Origin: a virus
Strand: one strand, 5' to 3'
DNA length: 31,025 bases
Virus record (IMG/VR): IMGVR_UViG_3300038701_001814
Span: 1 to 31,025 of that record
This document shows positions 7,686 to 27,294 of this stretch, in pieces. Position 1 is the first letter of the stretch, and each line of letters begins with the position of its first letter. The position numbers were made by a program, and so were the translations under genes. Under the pieces are notes generated by a model, which did no database searches, was not told the DNA's origin, and saw nothing but the letters and a program-made list of their open reading frames with translations.

Positions 7686-7885
7686 TGGCCACACAGGAAG
7701 AAATTAAGAAGACCATTCTCAAGGTTGCTGGTAACCCTGTCGCTGGTCCCGTCGCTTCACTTGCCGCCCAAATGGCTGAAGCAATTATTGAACTGGACAA
7801 TCCTGTTGCTCAGCCCAAGAAGCAGAAACGAGTTCTTGAAACTATGGAAACTCGGGAAGCTGGAAGTGTTGGCGAAGAAGCCTAG
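7685..7885 (+). CDS. Small protein following the prohead protease
   Basis: A 66-residue, mostly helical protein (EIKKTILKVAGNPVAGPVASLAAQMAEAIIELD) followed by a basic-acidic tail. Proteins of this look are common beside capsid genes of actinophages, but I know no function. The start overlaps the protease stop (TAATG). Its last 44 nt overlap the 3' end of a convergent minus-strand gene with no terminator between them. Confidence 0.6.
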   Translation: MATQEEIKKTILKVAGNPVAGPVASLAAQMAEAIIELDNPVAQPKKQKRVLETMETREAGSVGEEA

Positions 7886-8132
7886 TCAGCTTCGCTTCCA
7901 AGTCATCAATCAACTGTTCGGTCTGTTCGACCAGACTGCCTAAGAACTGCAGTTCGGGATCATCTGATTCTGTCCAGTTGAAGTAGTCAAGCTCCCGCCT
8001 GCAGTCATCAAACAGTTCCACGTAATGTGGGTAGCGTTCTGTCGCCCACACCAGTCTGTTGATGTTTGATTCTTGCTCAGGGTAAGCAATTCTGATCCAG
8101 TCAAGTTGAATGGTTGTCAGTGGTCTGTTCAT
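7842..8132 (-). CDS. Hypothetical protein, last gene of a minus-strand cassette
   Basis: A 96-residue acidic protein with a tryptophan-rich first half (LDWIRIAYPEQES, LVWATERYPHYVELFDD) and a C-terminal helix (SLVEQTEQLIDDLEAKLTRLLRQ) that could form a coiled coil. The start at 8132 is chosen because it overlaps the upstream stop (ATGA) and has AGGAAG in front; a GTG at 8165 is less likely. Function unknown. It probably belongs to the early minus-strand transcript starting near 8687. Confidence 0.65.
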   Translation of the reverse strand: MNRPLTTIQLDWIRIAYPEQESNINRLVWATERYPHYVELFDDCRRELDYFNWTESDDPELQFLGSLVEQTEQLIDDLEAKLTRLLRQHFQLPEFP

Positions 8133-8290
8133 TTGATCCTGCTTCCTGGGTGAATTCTTTGCCACCGTTCCAACATGTCACGCTTGGAACAGAGCGCATA
8201 CTGGTGATGTTTGATGGGGTGTCTGCCATCACAGGGGAGCCGATACCAGCCTGACCCTGTGGCTTCTACATCTTTGATGGTGAGTGTCAT
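8129..8290 (-). CDS. Small hypothetical protein of the minus-strand cassette
   Basis: A 53-residue ORF that begins MTLTIKDVEATGSGWYRLPC and ends GSRIK. Both ends overlap neighbouring genes by four bases (ATGA at each junction), which is strong support for a short gene. It is basic, with two cysteines (CDG, LCSK) and several histidines. Function unknown. Confidence 0.6.
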   Translation of the reverse strand: MTLTIKDVEATGSGWYRLPCDGRHPIKHHQYALCSKRDMLERWQRIHPGSRIK

Positions 8291-8475
8291 GATGCTCTCG
8301 CTACTGAATCACACTCAACACACCAGCCTTCAGGGTTGTCTGACAGGTTAAGGGCGTTCTTCAGGTTGTCACCTGGTGTCCATTCCCAATGGTCTTCGCA
8401 CATAACAATGTAGGGAATATCTTCAGGCTTTATCCCGTAGTCATCTATGTCTGTGTTTGCTGTGATGGTAATCAT
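8287..8475 (-). CDS. Small acidic protein of the minus-strand cassette
   Basis: 62 residues from an ATG at 8475 preceded by ACGGAG at good spacing. A longer upstream ATG is possible, but that extension overlaps the previous gene. The protein is acidic, with MCEDHWEW in the middle and WCVECDS near the end; the latter CxxC could bind metal. It overlaps the next gene by four bases. Function unknown; small acidic early proteins often bind host targets, but that is only a guess here. Confidence 0.6.
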   Translation of the reverse strand: MITITANTDIDDYGIKPEDIPYIVMCEDHWEWTPGDNLKNALNLSDNPEGWCVECDSVARAS

Positions 8476-8485
8476 TGGGGCTCCG

Positions 8486-8644
8486 TTACTTGGTGATGAA
8501 TTCAATTTCGTAGTGGTGACCAGGGATCTGGCCAGCACCCTGGAACAGTTCGTGCAGTGTGGCAATTTGTTTCTGTGCATCTTCCAAGGTGTCCCAGGTG
8601 TAACCCATGGCTTCACCGAATGTGTGAACAATAACTTTGAACAT
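8486..8644 (-). CDS. First gene of the minus-strand cassette, hypothetical
   Basis: 52 residues (MFKVIVHTFGEAMGYTWDTLEDAQKQIATL...). The start at 8644 has the leader GAACGGAAGGAAGC just in front, the same leader as before the 10271-10516 gene. The layout beta strand, W-x-T, then EDAQKQI helix loosely recalls the single minus-strand gene at 10271-10516. It is the first gene after the promoter-operator at 8687-8715. Function unknown. Confidence 0.6.
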   Translation of the reverse strand: MFKVIVHTFGEAMGYTWDTLEDAQKQIATLHELFQGAGQIPGHHYEIEFITK

Positions 8645-8686
8645 TTGCTTCCTTCCGTTCTGGGCTTCTGCCCTGTTGATACTCAA

Positions 8687-8715
8687 AGGCTAACAGGTAG
8701 CCAATGTGTATGCAA
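8687..8715 (-). promoter_or_regulatory. Minus-strand early promoter with palindromic operator
   Basis: On the minus strand: TTGCAT (8710-8715), a 17-nt spacer, then TAGCCT (8687-8692). The near-palindrome GGCTAACAGGTAGCC (8688-8702, plus strand) covers the -10 element. The same arrangement occurs at 10543-10571, 22468-22496 and 22501-22529. It should drive the four genes 8644 to 7842. Confidence 0.65.
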
Positions 8716-8837
8716 CCCCACACGGGAAAAACTTCACACGGTATTATAGAAGTGTCAGATGTGCGGAGCCGCTGCTGACCAATGCCATTGAGCGTCATCG
8801 CCATGGACCACACACAATCAACCATTGGAGAATAACT
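8716..8837 (+). promoter_or_regulatory. Leader region of the capsid gene
   Basis: This non-coding stretch precedes the major capsid gene. TATTAT at 8742-8747 could serve as a -10, but I see no convincing -35 at 16-18 nt. A short GCGGAGCCGC hairpin follows near 8762. The stretch can be read as an open frame continuous with the capsid gene, but the proper start has its own ribosome site just before 8838. Assigned as a possible late promoter and leader only. Confidence 0.3.
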
Positions 8838-9992
8838 GTGTCTGAATTCGTGAAGACCCAGCAGGAGCTCCGCGCTAACCTAGTCTCGCAAATTCGTGAG
8901 ACCATTGACAGCGCAGAAGCTGAGAGCCGTGGGCTCGCTGCTGAAGAACTGACCAAGATTGACCGCATCGAAGCTGACATTCGTCGCGCTGATGAAGCAA
9001 TTGAAGTTGCTAACCGCAATGAGGAACGCCGCTCTGAAGCTGAGCAGGCCGCCCGCAACTTCCAGGTTGCTGAGACCAGCCGTGATGGGGATGCCGAAAT
9101 CTTCCGCGCCATGGCTCGTGGTGAAGCTCGCGCTCACACCTTCAACTTTGAAAAGCGTGCCACCTTGGTGCCCAGCGCCAACACTGTCCCTGTTGACTTC
9201 CTGTCTCAGGTCTACGGCATCGCCCGTCTCGTAGGACCCATGTTGGATGTCTCAGACGTGATCACTCGTGAGAGTGGAAACGATCTGCGGATTCCCACCT
9301 ACACCGCCTACTCGAGCGCAACCGCTGCTGAAGCTGGCTCTGCAATTGAGGAAAGCGAACCGACGTTCTCAAGCATCCTTCTTCAGCCTGTCAAGCAGGG
9401 CTTCATCGTCAAGCTGGCCAACGAGCTGATTGCCGATGCAGGGTTCGACATTGAAGGTGTCATCGCTGAGCAGGCTGGTAACGCTATCGGCTTCCGTGTG
9501 AATGATCTTGCAACTGTGGGATCTGGATCAGGTGAAACTGAAGGTGTTGTCACTGCCGCTGCTTCTGCTGTTGAAGCTGGCACCACTAGCTTCACTGCTG
9601 ATGACCTGATCACCTTGGCGTACTCGCTCGATGGAGCCGCACGACGGTTGCCTGGCGTGGCATTCATGGCGAACACTTCCACTATGGGAGCTATCCGCCG
9701 CCTGAAAGATGACAACAACCAGTACATCTACAACCCACAGGTTGGCGGCCCGGACACCATTCTCGGCTACCCCGTCCTGGAGAATCCTGCCATGGCGGAC
9801 ATTGGCGCAGGTGCGAAATCGGTGGTCTTCGGCCACATGCCTTCGTACAAGATTGCGACAACCGGGCTCGAAGTGGCTACATCTTCGGATGCTTACTTCG
9901 CCAACGACGTGACCGCGTACCGGTTCACCTACCGCTTCGACGGTAAGCTGACCCACGCTGACCACGTCAAGTACCTGGTCCACGCTTCCTAA
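8838..9992 (+). CDS. Major capsid protein, HK97 fold
   Basis: The capsid shell subunit. From the GTG at 8838 (preceded by TTGGAG at 8 nt) it is 384 residues: an N-terminal helical delta domain rich in Glu/Arg (about 5-85), then a likely maturation cleavage zone, then the HK97-fold core (PVDFLSQVYGIARLVGPM, TRESGNDLRIPTYT, ILLQPVKQGFIVKLANELI, FMANTSTMGAIRRLKD, GYPVLENPAM, FTYRFDGK). An in-frame extension to 8706 is rejected because it lacks family-like sequence. It follows the protease in the usual order, except that the minus-strand cassette separates them. Confidence 0.92.
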   Translation: MSEFVKTQQELRANLVSQIRETIDSAEAESRGLAAEELTKIDRIEADIRRADEAIEVANRNEERRSEAEQAARNFQVAETSRDGDAEIFRAMARGEARAHTFNFEKRATLVPSANTVPVDFLSQVYGIARLVGPMLDVSDVITRESGNDLRIPTYTAYSSATAAEAGSAIEESEPTFSSILLQPVKQGFIVKLANELIADAGFDIEGVIAEQAGNAIGFRVNDLATVGSGSGETEGVVTAAASAVEAGTTSFTADDLITLAYSLDGAARRLPGVAFMANTSTMGAIRRLKDDNNQYIYNPQVGGPDTILGYPVLENPAMADIGAGAKSVVFGHMPSYKIATTGLEVATSSDAYFANDVTAYRFTYRFDGKLTHADHVKYLVHAS

Positions 9993-9996
9993 GCTG

Positions 9997-10031
9997 AAGG
10001 GGATCTGTTTTGTAGGTTGACAGGTCCCCTT
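9997..10031 (+). terminator. Strong hairpin just after the capsid gene
   Basis: AAGGGGATCTG (9997-10007) pairs with CAGGTCCCCTT (10021-10031), an 11-bp stem with one G-U pair and a 13-nt loop, four bases after the capsid stop. There is no real T-run after it, so it may stabilise capsid mRNA or pause transcription rather than terminate it. Confidence 0.55.
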
Positions 10032-10046
10032 CTGTAGGCGTACTAT
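10017..10046 (+). promoter_or_regulatory. Promoter upstream of the small RNA region
   Basis: A perfect TTGACA (10017-10022), an 18-nt spacer and TACTAT (10041-10046) would start transcription near 10053. The -35 lies in the loop of the hairpin after the capsid gene. The transcript would pass a six-codon ORF (10059-10079) into the terminator at 10083, and with read-through into the tRNA-like RNA. Confidence 0.5.
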
Positions 10047-10082
10047 GGTTGGGCGAGCATGTTTGTTCCTTCCATATGAGGG

Positions 10083-10120
10083 CCCCGTTAGATGACCACC
10101 ACATCTGGCGGGGTTCTTTG
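10083..10120 (+). terminator. Intrinsic terminator before the tRNA-like RNA
   Basis: CCCCGTTAGATG (10083-10094) pairs along its whole length with CATCTGGCGGGG (10102-10113), a 12-bp stem with two G-U pairs and a 7-nt loop. It is followed by TTCTTTGTTT (10114-10123). This is a textbook Rho-independent terminator. It ends directly at the 5' end of the tRNA-like RNA. Confidence 0.75.
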
Positions 10121-10123
10121 TTT

Positions 10124-10202
10124 GGGTCTGGAAGGTTTCGACAGCTGGGAGAGCCCGAAGTGGGAGCCCGGTTGGACCACAGTTCGATTCTGTGCAGATC
10201 CA
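10124..10202 (+). ncRNA. tmRNA-like tRNA-like domain without tag region (79 nt)
   Basis: The acceptor stem GGGTCTG (10124-10130) pairs with CAGATCC (10195-10201), giving a G3-U70 pair, the alanine identity element, and discriminator A at 10202. Next come GAA and GGTTTCGAC (10134-10142), the tmRNA D-loop signature at its usual distance. CAGCTGGG (10142-10149) pairs with CCCGGTTG (10167-10174) as a short helix 2. Then the tmRNA-typical GGAC, and a T-arm CACAG-TTCGATT-CTGTG (10178-10194). The segment between the helix 2 strands is only 17 nt, so there are no pseudoknots and no tag frame. CCA is not encoded (ACG follows). It cannot fold as a normal tRNA: the D-stem and anticodon stem fail. Reduced, tag-less tmRNAs are known from some mitochondria. 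Function here is unknown; an SmpB- or alanyl-tRNA synthetase-binding mimic is possible. Confidence 0.65.
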
Positions 10203-10233
10203 CGTAATTCAGTTGAGTGTTTTGGGCATAGAA

Positions 10234-10258
10234 AATCCCCCAACTAATGTGGGGGATT
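10234..10258. terminator. Bidirectional-type terminator hairpin
   Basis: AATCCCCC (10234-10241) pairs with GGGGGATT (10251-10258) around a 9-nt loop. On the minus strand a T-rich tail (GATTTTCTA) follows, so it best serves the minus-strand gene ending at 10271. On the plus strand it would also close the tRNA-like RNA transcript. Confidence 0.65.
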
Positions 10259-10270
10259 CTCTGCGGATAG

Positions 10271-10516
10271 CTAGACGGCTACCCAATACCACCTGTGTTG
10301 AGGATGCTTCTGCCCTTCTCGAAGCTTCCCACAAACCGTTCCGCCTTCATTGACGTAGGGTTGATAGGCTGGGTCAACTTCGTAGACTTCAAAGGCTTGC
10401 GCCTTCTTCCAGTCCTTCTGTGCCTTCAGATTGCTGATGGCTTCATTGCGATTGTGACCTGTCGCCCAGCACCCGTAGATGCTTCCGGTGGTTACTGCTA
10501 GGAATTGGTGTGTCAT
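10271..10516 (-). CDS. Hypothetical small protein, single minus-strand gene
   Basis: 81 residues from the ATG at 10516, chosen for the leader GAACGGAAGGAACAAG directly before it. The sequence has a strand (THQFLAVTTGSIYGCW), an EAISNLKAQKDW helix and an aromatic C-terminus (HPQHRWYWVAV). It sits alone between a terminator (10234-10258) and its own promoter-operator (10543-10571), facing against the late genes. I do not recognise it. Its promoter links it to the 8486-8644 cassette. Confidence 0.6.
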   Translation of the reverse strand: MTHQFLAVTTGSIYGCWATGHNRNEAISNLKAQKDWKKAQAFEVYEVDPAYQPYVNEGGTVCGKLREGQKHPQHRWYWVAV

Positions 10517-10542
10517 CTTGTTCCTTCCGTTCCAACACACTT

Positions 10543-10671: not shown

Positions 10672-11868
10672 ATGGCAACCTACGAGAAAATCAACGGTGT
10701 GGTGTCTCTGGCATCCAACAGTCCTGGAGCGCCCACAGGTTATGGCACCCAGGCACGCTACCTAGTTGACCGCCTAGTAAGACATGGCCTGAAGACAGCA
10801 GTGCTGTCCAACTATGGTCTAGAAGGTGGCATTCAAGATCTGAAGACACCATTTGGTAAGGCCACCCACTATCCAAAGGGTTGGGTGCCACATTCACCAG
10901 ATGTGTTGAAGCTTTGGCATGATCAGCACAGGCAGGCATGGCCAGAGCTCCCACACCTGCTAATGACTTTGTATGACGTGTGGGTGTACTCTCAGGCGAA
11001 ATATGATGGCCCGATGGCCTGCTGGGTGCCCATTGATCATGTGACTTTGCCACCCATGGTCAAGGAATTTATTAGTCGCCCCAATGTGCATCCCATCACA
11101 ATGGCACCACATGGTCACGAATTGTTGAACAGCAGAGGAATTGAGAACACCTACATTCCCCACGCTGTTGACACCACCATCTTCAAGCCCACAAAGAACA
11201 TTGAAGGAAAATCAGTGCGGGATTGGTTGGGCATTGATGAAGACACCTTCTTGGTGACAATGGTGGCCAATAACAAAGGCAACGGTTATGTTCACCGCAA
11301 AGCCCTGTCTGAAAACATTATGGCGTTCTCACTGTTCCTGAAGGATCATCCCAAATCGCATCTGTATTTGCACATGGACCCACGCCCAATGTTAGGTGGT
11401 GCTGACATTCAAGCGCTTCTTGAATCAGTCAACCTTGGACCAGACAATGTGTCTGTTGCTGATCCTGACCAGTTAATGATTGGCTACCCGCAGAGGACAC
11501 TCGCTGCCATTTACACAGCCAGTGATGTGTTCCTGGGAGCTTCTTATGGCGAAGGCTTCAACGTGCCGCTCATCGAAGCTCAGGCTTGCGGGACACCAGT
11601 GATCACTTCCAGTTGGACTGCTCCCAAGGATCTAGCTGGTCCCACTAGTTCTCTGGTGGATGGTCAACCCTGGTGGAACATCAAACAGCAGGCATATTGG
11701 CAGATTCCCATGATTGGGTCTATTGTCCAGGCGTTGAGCGACATGCGGGGCAAATGGGAAGGCCCAAGGGTGGACCATGCGAGCATTGAATTTGCCAAAC
11801 AGTTCCATGTGGAAACAGTGTGGCAACAGTATTGGATGCCATTCTTGAGAGACTACTTTGCTAACTGA
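10672..11868 (+). CDS. Glycosyltransferase, GT4/GT-B type
   Basis: 398 residues with an N-terminal acceptor-side half beginning SNSPGAPTGYGTQARYLVDRL, the glycine-rich loop of GT-B enzymes. The C-terminal donor half carries YGEGFNVPLIEAQACGTPVI (about 300-319), the E-x7-E nucleotide-sugar motif of family 4. It is probably translated from a leaderless transcript. It heads a three-gene set with a methyltransferase and a GT2 enzyme, placed between capsid and connector genes. It could glycosylate capsid or tail proteins or modify the host surface; the substrate cannot be read from sequence. Confidence 0.82.
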   Translation: MATYEKINGVVSLASNSPGAPTGYGTQARYLVDRLVRHGLKTAVLSNYGLEGGIQDLKTPFGKATHYPKGWVPHSPDVLKLWHDQHRQAWPELPHLLMTLYDVWVYSQAKYDGPMACWVPIDHVTLPPMVKEFISRPNVHPITMAPHGHELLNSRGIENTYIPHAVDTTIFKPTKNIEGKSVRDWLGIDEDTFLVTMVANNKGNGYVHRKALSENIMAFSLFLKDHPKSHLYLHMDPRPMLGGADIQALLESVNLGPDNVSVADPDQLMIGYPQRTLAAIYTASDVFLGASYGEGFNVPLIEAQACGTPVITSSWTAPKDLAGPTSSLVDGQPWWNIKQQAYWQIPMIGSIVQALSDMRGKWEGPRVDHASIEFAKQFHVETVWQQYWMPFLRDYFAN

Positions 11869-11870
11869 TC

Positions 11871-12401
11871 ATGACACTTGACGACATTTACACATATTTT
11901 TCCAGCCCTGATAAGGGTGGGGACAAAGGGACCCAACACAGTTACATAAGCATTTATGGTGAACAGATCCCACCCAGTGCGAAAAGCATTCTGGAAATTG
12001 GTGTGTATAAGGGTCAGTCTTTGGCGATGTGGCAACAGTATTTGATAGATGCCACAGTCATTGGGTTGGATGTCAATGTGGACCAGGTCACTCATTCTGT
12101 TGATGCTCGCCTTTGTGATGCCACAGATCCAACCCAGGTGAATAAAGCCCTGGGTGATCACACCTTTGACTACATCATTGATGATGGGTCACACAAAGTC
12201 CATGATCAGATTGCTTCCTTGAAGCTTCTGTGGGACAGGGTGAATCCTGGTGGTGCCTACTTCATTGAAGATATTGCTGGCCCTGATGCTTTGCGGGTCC
12301 TTCTGGAATACATTGACACAATGCAGGTCGCCTATCAGACATGGGATCTGCGGTCTGTGAAGAATAGGTTCGATGACATGTTAGTGATGGTACGAAAATG
12401 A
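11871..12401 (+). CDS. Class I SAM-dependent methyltransferase
   Basis: 176 residues with motif I ILEIGVYKGQSLAMW (about 39-53), the acidic strand end VIGLDVN (63-69), DYIIDDGSHKVHDQ (about 100-113), and PGGAYFIEDI (about 124-133). This layout resembles small-molecule or sugar O-methyltransferases (macrocin O-methyltransferase/CmcI-like) rather than DNA methyltransferases; no DPPY-like motif is seen. Between two glycosyltransferases, sugar methylation is the likely job. It overlaps the next gene by four bases. Confidence 0.75.
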   Translation: MTLDDIYTYFSSPDKGGDKGTQHSYISIYGEQIPPSAKSILEIGVYKGQSLAMWQQYLIDATVIGLDVNVDQVTHSVDARLCDATDPTQVNKALGDHTFDYIIDDGSHKVHDQIASLKLLWDRVNPGGAYFIEDIAGPDALRVLLEYIDTMQVAYQTWDLRSVKNRFDDMLVMVRK

Positions 12402-13048
12402 TCCCCAACCTGATCATCCCTGTGTTGAATCGGTATGACTTACTACAAAGAATGTTGGACACAGTTGACACCAGAATTGCACACCTGGTGTTGATTGATA
12501 ATGGTGACAATCTGGAGCAGGTGAACTTCCCTGACCTGGTCAAACATGTTCACTACATTCCGCTCCCAGGCAATCTTGGTGTTGCTGGGTCCTGGAACTT
12601 GGGAATCAAAGTGTTACCGCATGCTGAAAAGTGGATTATCGCCAGCAACGACATCATGTTGGGGTCAGGTGATCTGGATGAATTAGGTGATGCAAAGAAT
12701 GATGAGCTCACTTTGACTGAAGCTCGACCACATTGGCAACTTTTTTCTGTAGGTGAAGAAGTCATCAGACATGTGGGACTATTCGATGAGAATTACTACC
12801 CGGCCTACTTTGAAGATAACGATTATCAGCAACGGGTTGAACATGCAGGCTTCACCACTCGCCTTCTACAGCTGGGTGTTGAACATGACAATTCGTCTAC
12901 GCTTAGATCCAACAAACAATTCCAGGCACACAATTCCAACACCTACAAAGATAATCAGAAGTATTACTTGAAGAAGACCCAGGATGGGAACTATTCACCA
13001 GGGCATTGGTCCCTGACTCGCCGCCGCCGTAACGAGTGGCTTCGGTAG
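12398..13048 (+). CDS. Glycosyltransferase, GT2/GT-A type
   Basis: 216 residues with LIIPVLNRYDLL (5-16), LVLIDNGDN (30-38), PLPGNLGVAGSWNLGI (about 56-71), SNDIML where family 2 usually has DxD, and FDENYYPAYFEDNDYQQRV (about 129-147), the ED-containing acceptor-site motif. The C-terminus is strongly basic (LTRRRRNEWLR). It ends the three-gene sugar module; the stop is 12 nt before the connector gene. Confidence 0.78.
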   Translation: MIPNLIIPVLNRYDLLQRMLDTVDTRIAHLVLIDNGDNLEQVNFPDLVKHVHYIPLPGNLGVAGSWNLGIKVLPHAEKWIIASNDIMLGSGDLDELGDAKNDELTLTEARPHWQLFSVGEEVIRHVGLFDENYYPAYFEDNDYQQRVEHAGFTTRLLQLGVEHDNSSTLRSNKQFQAHNSNTYKDNQKYYLKKTQDGNYSPGHWSLTRRRRNEWLR

Positions 13049-23295: not shown

Positions 23296-23866
23296 GTTTA
23301 TTGCAAACAAAGCCTTGGACCATTCTGGGTGGCTTAACGCTAGACGTAATGGTGTGACAGCGACAGAAGTGGCTAAGGCAGCGACAAAGTCTGGCATGGC
23401 TGAAGTGTTGGACAGGTTAGTGAATCCACAGGAAGACTTTGACAATGCCTTCATGGCCTTTGGTAGGGACATGGAAGGTCCACTGTCACTGTGGGTGAAG
23501 GATCAGTTTGATGTGATGCCAAATGAGTGGTTGATTGCTCATGAGAATCCGGCGTTCATGGCGACACCAGATGGCCTGTCAATTGGTCATCTGACAATAA
23601 GTGAAATTAAGACGACAGGGAAGGACTTCAGCAAAGGCATCCCCATTCAGTATCGCAGGCAGGTCCAATGGCAGATGTTTGTCACTGGTGCTACTCGGTG
23701 CCATTTTGTGTGGATGCTTAGGGTTGAAGATAAGAATGGCGACTTCCAGCCTGGGTGGATTGAGCCCAAGCATGAAGTGATAGTGCCTGATTATGAAATG
23801 CAGGCTGACCTGGAGAAATCGGCTAGGTCTTTATTGATTGAGAAACGGAGAATTACTGATGGCTAG
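23279..23866 (+). CDS. YqaJ-type recombination exonuclease
   Basis: 195 residues of the PD-(D/E)xK lambda-exonuclease/YqaJ class, which resects double-stranded ends for recombination. Visible are GVTATEVAKAAT near residue 25, FGRDMEGPL (about 61-69), ATPDGLS (about 95-101) and SEIKTTGKDF (about 107-116) forming the D...E-x-K core, and the YRRQVQWQM helix. The ATG at 23279 is preferred over TTG 23276 because of spacing to GGGGAG. It is coupled to the annealing protein gene. Confidence 0.82.
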   Translation: MIPADRFIANKALDHSGWLNARRNGVTATEVAKAATKSGMAEVLDRLVNPQEDFDNAFMAFGRDMEGPLSLWVKDQFDVMPNEWLIAHENPAFMATPDGLSIGHLTISEIKTTGKDFSKGIPIQYRRQVQWQMFVTGATRCHFVWMLRVEDKNGDFQPGWIEPKHEVIVPDYEMQADLEKSARSLLIEKRRITDG

Positions 23867-24368
23867 ATTCAACTTGAACGATTATGACATGGTGGAAAAT
23901 CGGATTGCCCGATTCCTTGAGGACTTCCCTGATGGCAGGATCATCACCAGGGAAATGACCACTGACAATGACAGAGCCAAAGGGTACTGGGTGGTGATGG
24001 CTGAAATTTTCACTGACCATGAAGATCAACATGCCCGCTGTGCAAAGGCGAGTGGTTGGGCCTTTGAAATTGAAGGCACTGCTGGTGCCAACGCTACCGC
24101 TGCCCTGGAAAATTGCGAGACGAGTGCGATTGGTCGCGCTTTGGCGAATGCTGGCTACAGTGGCAATAAGCGTGCTAGTCAGTCTGAAATGAAGAAGGTG
24201 GCCAGAGCAGATAAGCCTATCCCTGAAGAATTTGTCAATCAGATCAGTGAAGCTTCATCAATAGACGAATTGACAAAATTGTGGGATACTGCCGTTAATG
24301 AAGGCTACGCTGAAGATCTAAGGAAGGTCTTTGGTGCCAGGAAGCAACGGTTGGAGAATGATGCCTAA
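23859..24368 (+). CDS. Single-strand annealing protein (Erf/Sak-like)
   Basis: 169 residues from ATG 23859 (GGAGAATT in front). The blocks YDMVENRIARFLEDFPDGRIIT, VVMAEIFTD and TAALENCETSAIGRALANAGYSGNKRASQSEM match a family common in actinophages and annotated as a recombinase or ssDNA-binding protein. With the exonuclease just upstream it should form a Red-like end-resection and annealing pair. Which annealing superfamily it belongs to is not certain. Confidence 0.75.
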   Translation: MARFNLNDYDMVENRIARFLEDFPDGRIITREMTTDNDRAKGYWVVMAEIFTDHEDQHARCAKASGWAFEIEGTAGANATAALENCETSAIGRALANAGYSGNKRASQSEMKKVARADKPIPEEFVNQISEASSIDELTKLWDTAVNEGYAEDLRKVFGARKQRLENDA

Positions 24369-25839: not shown

Positions 25840-26535
25840 ATGCTGATTCGTGGTCACCATGACCTTGATGATCAATTCACACAGGTGCCGAATTCTTGGT
25901 TGAGAGACAGCAGGCTGAGCCTGGGAGCCATTGGGCTTCTCGGTCAACTGTTGTCCCACAGACCTGGATGGTCGGTCAGCCTAGAATCGTTGGCTCATTC
26001 CAATAATTGTGGGCGGGACAGAATCAGGACATATGTTGGCGAGCTGTCTGAAGCAGGCTATTTGACTAGGTCAAAGAAGCAGCGAAGGAACAGCAAAGGA
26101 CATGTGACTGGGTATGACTACCACCTTGGAAGTCCATCGTTGGATTATCCTACGAAGGCTGACCCTACGAAGGGTGAACCTACGAAGGAAAACTCGGCGC
26201 ATAAGAATACTAGGGTTAAGAACACCATTAGTAAGAACACTATTGATGAAGAAGTATCCATCGAATTTGATCAATTTTGGGACGTGTATCCAAAGAAGGT
26301 TGACAAACCTTTGGCGAAGAAGTCCTTCCAGAAGGCTTTGGTTAGGGCAACCTTTGAAGACATTCTGAAGGGTGCTCAGGCGTATGCTGATGATCCCAAC
26401 CGAGAACAGCGTTTCACTAAGAATCCATCGACTTGGTTAAATGCTGATGCTTGGGAGAATCCACCACTGCCTGCTAAGGGTAAGCGTGCTGAGACAAAAC
26501 GGTTGATTGATGAGTGGAAACAGTCAGGTGCTTGA
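25840..26535 (+). CDS. Replication initiator with winged-helix domain
   Basis: 231 residues. Residues about 13-95 form a winged-helix domain (NSWLRDSRLSLGAIGLLGQLLSHRPGWSVSLESLAHS, RDRIRTYVGELSEAGYLTRSKKQ). A linker carries PTKAD-PTKGE-PTKEN (104-118) and KNTRV-KNTIS-KNTID (122-136). The C-terminal domain (143-216, FDQFWDVYPKKVDKPLAKKSF to NPSTWLNADAWENPP) is typical of phage and primosome-type replication proteins. The linker DNA is made of 15-bp repeats that look like an origin. GGGGG precedes the ATG. Confidence 0.78.
   Translation: MLIRGHHDLDDQFTQVPNSWLRDSRLSLGAIGLLGQLLSHRPGWSVSLESLAHSNNCGRDRIRTYVGELSEAGYLTRSKKQRRNSKGHVTGYDYHLGSPSLDYPTKADPTKGEPTKENSAHKNTRVKNTISKNTIDEEVSIEFDQFWDVYPKKVDKPLAKKSFQKALVRATFEDILKGAQAYADDPNREQRFTKNPSTWLNADAWENPPLPAKGKRAETKRLIDEWKQSGA
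26149..26246 (+). repeat. Candidate replication origin: two iteron sets inside the initiator gene
   Basis: CCTACGAAGG occurs at 26149, 26164 and 26179, and TAAGAAYAC at 26202, 26217 and 26232; both sets have a strict 15-bp period. The first set is identical at every base, including silent positions, and the second is A/T rich, like the iteron plus unwinding-region layout inside lambda O. A recent tandem duplication of a protein linker is the alternative. Confidence 0.55.
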
Positions 26536-26564
26536 CATCTAACCAATATGGCTACACACTAGCT
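26532..26564 (+). promoter_or_regulatory. Promoter with variant operator
   Basis: TTGACA (26532-26537) is perfect; a 17-nt spacer gives a weak CACACT -10 (26555-26560). GGCTACACACTAGCT (26550-26564) keeps the GGCTA-N5-TAGCY half-site spacing of the shared operator. The leader GAACGGAG (26578-26585) leads to ATG 26592. Confidence 0.45.
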
Positions 26565-26591
26565 GTGTGGATTGATAGAACGGAGAAAAAG

Positions 26592-26813
26592 ATGAACAAT
26601 CCAGTTACCCAATACCTGGCAGATACCAGGGATGAGCTTCTGAGACTGGCTGATGGCCACCAGATCTGCTTTGAACATGATCCTGATGAATGTGTGTTTG
26701 ATCTGGTCAGGGAATCAGCAGAGCTGTTGGACCAGGCAGTGATTCAAAGATCACCCGGTGGTGTTGATGGTGCGATGTGGAGGAAGATGGTGATGGAAGA
26801 TGAACTTGCGTGA
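26592..26813 (+). CDS. Small acidic hypothetical protein
   Basis: 73 residues (MNNPVTQYLADTRDELLRLADGHQICFEHDPDECVFDLVRES...). ATG 26592 has GAACGGAG in front; the longer frame from 26514 is rejected. Helical and acidic, no family recognised. It sits between initiator and loader-like protein and overlaps the latter by 14 nt. Confidence 0.6.
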   Translation: MNNPVTQYLADTRDELLRLADGHQICFEHDPDECVFDLVRESAELLDQAVIQRSPGGVDGAMWRKMVMEDELA

Positions 26814-27294
26814 GACGAAAGAACTATTGGCCAGGGTCGCTGCTGTTGATAATCGTGAATTATCTGAAGCGATGGCTGAGCAGTGGCAGGAACTGATTGG
26901 TGACCTGAACTTCAAGGTGGCAAAACGGGCTTTGAAGCTGGCACAGCGGGATCAGAAGGTCCAGTGGGTCCAACCCAAGGACATTGTCGCCAAGATGCAT
27001 GATGCAATCGCTGAGCTGAATCGTGAAGTCCAATCTGAGAAGTCTGAGGAACAAGAAGAATGGGTGCCATGCCCTAAGCCTTCCAACTATGACCAGATGG
27101 TGTCCTTCTATCGTGAGCTGTATCAGAAGGCCCCATGGGCGACTGAGAAGGCCACAGGGATGTTGACAGTGGGAACCACACATTCAAAGCCACAGCCCCA
27201 CCACAGGCAACTTTATAACCTTGAATTAGATCGGGAAGTTGAGAAGTCAGCGGAAGCTGTTGGATGGACTATCCCCCAACCGGAATGGAACTGA
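26800..27294 (+). CDS. Helicase loader-like protein
   Basis: 164 residues. The N-terminal half (MNLRETKELLARVAAVDNRELSEAMAEQWQELIGDLNFKVAKRALKLAQRDQKVQWVQPKDIVAKM) has the W-x-x-L helix, repeated helices and PKDI motif of small G39P-like helicase loaders. A Gln/Glu hinge and an unassigned second half follow. After the initiator gene this fits delivery of host helicase to the origin. The call rests on pattern and position. Confidence 0.5.
   Translation: MNLRETKELLARVAAVDNRELSEAMAEQWQELIGDLNFKVAKRALKLAQRDQKVQWVQPKDIVAKMHDAIAELNREVQSEKSEEQEEWVPCPKPSNYDQMVSFYRELYQKAPWATEKATGMLTVGTTHSKPQPHHRQLYNLELDREVEKSAEAVGWTIPQPEWN

Follow-up and report, generated by a model that had tools for sequence, protein, structure and literature searches.

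A putative replication origin with dyad iterons and an A/T-rich unwinding element inside the initiator gene of an IMG/VR virus

In phage SPP1, oriL consists of direct repeats and an A/T-rich unwinding element inside gene 38, and G39P is the helicase loader (PMC6316719). In lambda, iterons followed by an A/T-rich tract lie midway along the initiator gene, the loader gene follows the initiator gene, and the helicase is supplied by the host (PMC7466680). The gene 18 initiators of P22 and phage L are distantly related, and each has iterons of its own within the coding region (PMC8022706). Because intragenic iterons have already been published for lambda, P22 and L (PMC8022706), the origin described here is of a known kind and is a new member of it. 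In the part of the literature that was covered, neither this origin nor a family-wide frame test of the sort used below was found described.

We analyzed an IMG/VR virus record of 31,025 bases, which may be incomplete and which we call the window. Judging from its sequence, positions 26134–26260 are very probably the phage replication origin, located inside the initiator gene and composed of dyad iterons and an unwinding element. The gene in question (25840–26535, plus strand) was assigned as a replication initiator from its protein families, its AlphaFold model and the fold matches of that model: the protein matched HTH_36 (E 7e-7) and the replication initiation protein family phrog_270 (E 2.4e-33). 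The AlphaFold model, built from 52 relatives, showed a confident winged helix up to about residue 96, a low-confidence linker, read as disordered, at residues ∼100–131 and a helical C-terminal domain at residues 132–230. The repeats described below fall in the low-confidence stretch with a domain on either side, in agreement with a preliminary description of this DNA that had placed them in the linker between domains. Among the solved folds nearest to the winged helix were primosomal DnaB, RctB domain 1, plasmid RepA and DnaD; solved structures sought by sequence for the initiator and the predicted loader gave no convincing match.

Exact matches confirmed the two repeat sets that had been reported for this gene, three perfect copies of CCTACGAAGG and three of TAAGAAYAC, each set at 15-bp spacing. 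The CCTACGAAGG iterons occupy positions 26149–26158, 26164–26173 and 26179–26188 on the plus strand; all three are exact copies, and their wobble bases are conserved in relatives. The iteron is dyad-symmetric, with 4/5 complementary pairs. Exactly 15 bp upstream of the first perfect copy sits a possible degenerate iteron, CCATCGTTGG (26134–26143, plus strand), which is weak, matching 6/8 fixed bases of CCTACGnnGG; the nearest relatives (L056–L062) likewise have a 6/8 match at the equal offset. No copies of CCTACGAAGG with up to one mismatch were found besides the three in the whole record, which may be incomplete, and a search of the window for a second iteron array found none.

No 60-bp segment of the window is less stable than the proposed unwinding element (26200–26259, plus strand). 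Its GC content is 33%, and it ranked first in nearest-neighbour instability across the 31 kb at 40, 60 and 80 bp. It contains exact TAAGAAYAC repeats on the plus strand, TAAGAATAC at 26202–26210 and TAAGAACAC at 26217–26225 and again at 26232–26240, and relatives carry AT-rich repeats as well, at 15–16 bp. This second set had been called A/T rich from the outset, and it sits where the duplex of the window is weakest. The stability minimum of the linker was within the weakest 1% of the locus in 88 of the 93 relatives examined below.

The iterons might alternatively be an intragenic operator at which the initiator, or some other regulator, governs how the replication genes are transcribed, with replication beginning elsewhere. 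A pairing of dyad sites with a winged-helix protein would suit a repressor site too, and one promoter-like site lies upstream, though the count of such sites equals the shuffle expectation. An operator leaves unexplained, however, why the iterons have an A/T-rich partner with repeats of its own, in nearly all relatives on one and the same side, and why that partner is the least stable DNA; moreover, no promoter of the window has a further copy of the site. We therefore consider an operator in place of an origin improbable. Autoregulation could take place in addition to origin function.

The window repeats, both sets, are all in frame. Taken alone, they thus leave a role in the protein and a role in the DNA unsettled, and for this reason we collected relatives, from which the frame argument comes. 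In the window gene itself, the three PTK motifs are all codon-identical (chance 0.0024 under window codon usage), and the in-frame repeat count was reached by 0/200 synonymous shuffles; the codon-identity excess of the window linker alone was modest and at most suggestive (P 0.036). These data leave room for a protein feature alone, a charged repetitive linker (PTKxx, KNTxx) whose DNA is alike through repetition or recent duplication, and the protein repeats are indeed real.

Relatives were drawn from IMG/VR and bacterial genomes and reduced to 93 non-redundant linkers. In these we counted 11-mer repeats whose spacing is not divisible by three and compared the counts with synonymous shuffles, including, as a stricter null, shuffles with the linkers' own codon usage. 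At such spacings, the same DNA word is read in different frames and therefore encodes different residues. Out-of-frame spacings were present in 43 of the 93 linkers, against an expectation of 2.5 under synonymous shuffling and of 2.3, with a maximum of 5, under the stricter null, and in 26 of 43 clusters after protein clustering. The domains on either side of the linker had such repeats in 1/93 and 2/92 of these genes. Lambda O, a proven case that served as the positive control, also gave an out-of-frame signal in the same test. For example, L003 carries CCCGTCACGGT at 16 bp, with one copy encoding PVT and the next SRHG; CTACGGAA is repeated at 16 bp in L025 and L026, and ATCCGCCCACCCC at 22 bp in L023. 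Every relative carries repeats of its own, and the spacings are almost confined to 15–16 and 21–22 bp, that is, ∼1.5 and 2 DNA turns.

Codon choice within the iterons pointed in the same direction. The iteron class of the window (CCT) comprises 24 relatives with CCTACGnnGG or CCTnnnnAGG. At the iteron positions of this class, Pro is encoded by CCT in 60/61 cases, compared with 25% elsewhere in these genes (P 7e-29), Leu by TTG in 12/12, compared with 17% elsewhere, and Lys by AAG in 33/33. In the sister CCG class, the iterons use CCG for Pro in 44/45 cases, TCG for Ser in 17/17 and ACG for Thr in 16/16. The codon for one residue hence depends on the iteron class, since Pro is CCT in one and CCG in the other. 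Within the repeats, and nowhere else in these genes, wobble bases are almost invariant, and they stay so while the encoded residues vary among K, L, Q and Y. The preliminary description had proposed conservation of silent positions in relatives as a check, and within the repeats they are conserved; it had also named conservation of the linker at the protein level only as an outcome that would speak against an origin, and this is contradicted by relatives that keep DNA repeats while frame and residues change. For the family, an explanation by the protein alone is already contradicted, and for the window we regard it as highly improbable. The origin-like reading of the iterons gained support from this conservation at the DNA level and from the local instability, the initiator families and the fold predicted for the loader.

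Several groups of relatives had features of their own. In L056–L062, the winged helix is the closest to that of the window, the C-terminal domain is clearly divergent, and iterons of the form CCTAC(G/T)AAGG are retained. The initiators of L038–L051 have a different N-terminal domain and an invariant GGGGTGACA at 21 bp and, downstream of it, CCTTA/AGAACC repeats at 11–14 bp. In the initiator of L172 (Oenococcus phage Krappator149), GGACGAATCGTG-type words around residues 147–153 repeat at 11 and 22 bp, equal to one and two helical turns, and run through all three reading frames.

The A/T-rich set also behaved as a DNA element. A/T-rich 11-mers at 16-bp spacing were present in 22 relatives versus 0.3 expected, and AGAAC occurred in at least two frames in 26 relatives versus 5.9 expected. 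In Cinna and Matzah, two Microbacterium phages in culture, AAGAACACAA and AAGAACACCA are followed 16 bp on by GAGAACACCA, even though the C-terminal domain of their initiators is unrelated in sequence. It is because of these frame-independent repeats, and of the copies in Cinna and Matzah despite the unrelated domain, that we assign the A/T-rich set to the DNA.

An element acting as RNA, such as a hairpin or an antitermination signal in an early transcript, is very unlikely indeed: the iteron array of the window folds into a nested hairpin (z −2.65 for the sense strand and −3.5 for the other strand), but any row of palindromes can fold so, in single folds from other classes it is no better than shuffled (L042, z +0.45; L107, z −0.36), and what the classes retain is the DNA repeats with their helical spacing, not the fold.

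Sequence-specific binding of A/T-rich repeats on one strand has been described for RK2 TrfA and F RepE (PMC4081077). By analogy with these two proteins, we infer that the A/T-rich repeats of the window may serve in single-strand recognition. The present locus resembles the RK2 and F systems in having a winged-helix initiator, iterons and an adjoining A/T-rich element with repeated motifs. The iteron plasmid origins of RK2 and F are located outside coding sequence and use DnaA boxes. Unlike them, the proposed origin is intragenic and has no DnaA boxes nearby: a search for TTRTCCACA with up to one mismatch found none within 600 bp of the iterons. We suggest tentatively that the A/T-rich repeats could be a sequence-specific single-strand site common to many phages whose double-strand iterons differ. 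It is also conceivable, with similar reservation, that this candidate site, made up of AAGAAC-type words at 15–16 bp, has a role comparable to that of DnaA-trios or plasmid 13-mers.

The initiator model also offered a candidate for iteron recognition. The codons of C57-G58 and of the predicted recognition helix (residues 59–71) lie at 26011–26052 on the plus strand, and this segment differs between iteron classes. The residue preceding the helix glycine is C, V, I or M in 24/24 members of the CCT class; the CCG class has E at this position, the CCCG class T. Covariation of helix and iteron was rejected as proof of recognition, there being about five class changes on the tree, and was kept as a lead. 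A counterexample comes from Cinna and Matzah, which share the helix segment PDGRDSVRA and differ in the third base of the iteron (CCTACG versus CCGACG).

Downstream of the initiator, the gene at 26800–27294 (plus strand) encodes a predicted helicase loader with matches in 62 of the collected loci. Its predicted model (mean pLDDT 78.5) aligned in VIA-align with SPP1 G39P (1NO1), whose fold its N-terminal part shares, with Z 9.8 and an rmsd of 1.8 over 63/67 residues; the next unrelated fold scored Z 5.1. Foldseek alone missed the G39P match that VIA-align recovered, and a Pfam search of the loader gave no match. No DnaB-type helicase (PF03796) was found in the record, which may be a fragment, and for this reason the likely partner of the loader is a DnaB-type helicase of the host. 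Between initiator and loader lies a small ORF (26514–26813, plus strand) that is kept in only 7 close relatives and whose true start is probably internal, at the M at 26592. The surrounding genes all point one way, and no GC-skew switch was visible at the origin site.

The preliminary description had likened the arrangement to lambda O. That comparison holds for the intragenic iterons and the A/T tract, for the order of initiator and then loader, and for the use of a host helicase, which here is the likely partner; lambda iterons are also mutually out of frame, as are the repeats in 43 of the 93 relatives. Yet SPP1 genes 38 and 39 are at least as close. Lambda iterons are ∼18 bp long at 20–24 bp, whereas those of the window are 10 bp at 15 bp; similarity of the initiator to O-like PHROGs was marginal (phrog_391, E 0.0046; phrog_345, E 0.024); and the loader of the window resembles G39P. 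With the G38P/G39P/G40P system of SPP1, the window shares repeats and an A/T-rich element in the initiator gene, a loader gene near it and the G39P (1NO1) fold of the downstream loader model. It differs from SPP1 in that neither a phage DnaB-type helicase nor an oriR-like second repeat array was found in this record, which may be a fragment. Like gene 18 of P22 and L, the family of the window has class-specific iterons, but the protein belongs to a different branch and the repeat sequences are unrelated.

We infer that 26134–26260 is bound by the initiator, melted and loaded with a helicase, and that replication starts there. The winged helix of the initiator would bind three, perhaps four, dyad 10-bp iterons 15 bp apart, or ∼1.5 helical turns, and the resulting complex would melt the adjoining A/T-rich stretch. 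The TAAGAAYAC repeats would probably then provide a single strand preferred by the initiator or by a partner, and the G39P-like downstream protein would recruit a DnaB-type helicase, probably that of the host.

Origins are unmapped in most phages known solely from metagenomes, and repeats at helical spacing in several frames of one gene both locate an origin and support it from sequence alone. Within the family, DNA-binding domains and their cognate iterons occur in many natural pairings from which one could learn how such winged helices choose DNA, and cultured Microbacterium phages allow a test of the motif that the unwinding elements share.

Elsewhere in the window, the phrog_11717 gene at 23838–24368 lies beside a YqaJ exonuclease gene, has matches in 124 collected loci, and so counts among the conserved members of the recombination module. 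By eye, and from translations only, glycosyltransferase-like and methyltransferase-like ORFs were seen amid structural genes at 10672–13048 and 911–1774. Short minus-strand ORFs at 7842–8825 and 9967–10540, between plus-strand structural genes, resemble accessory-gene insertions.
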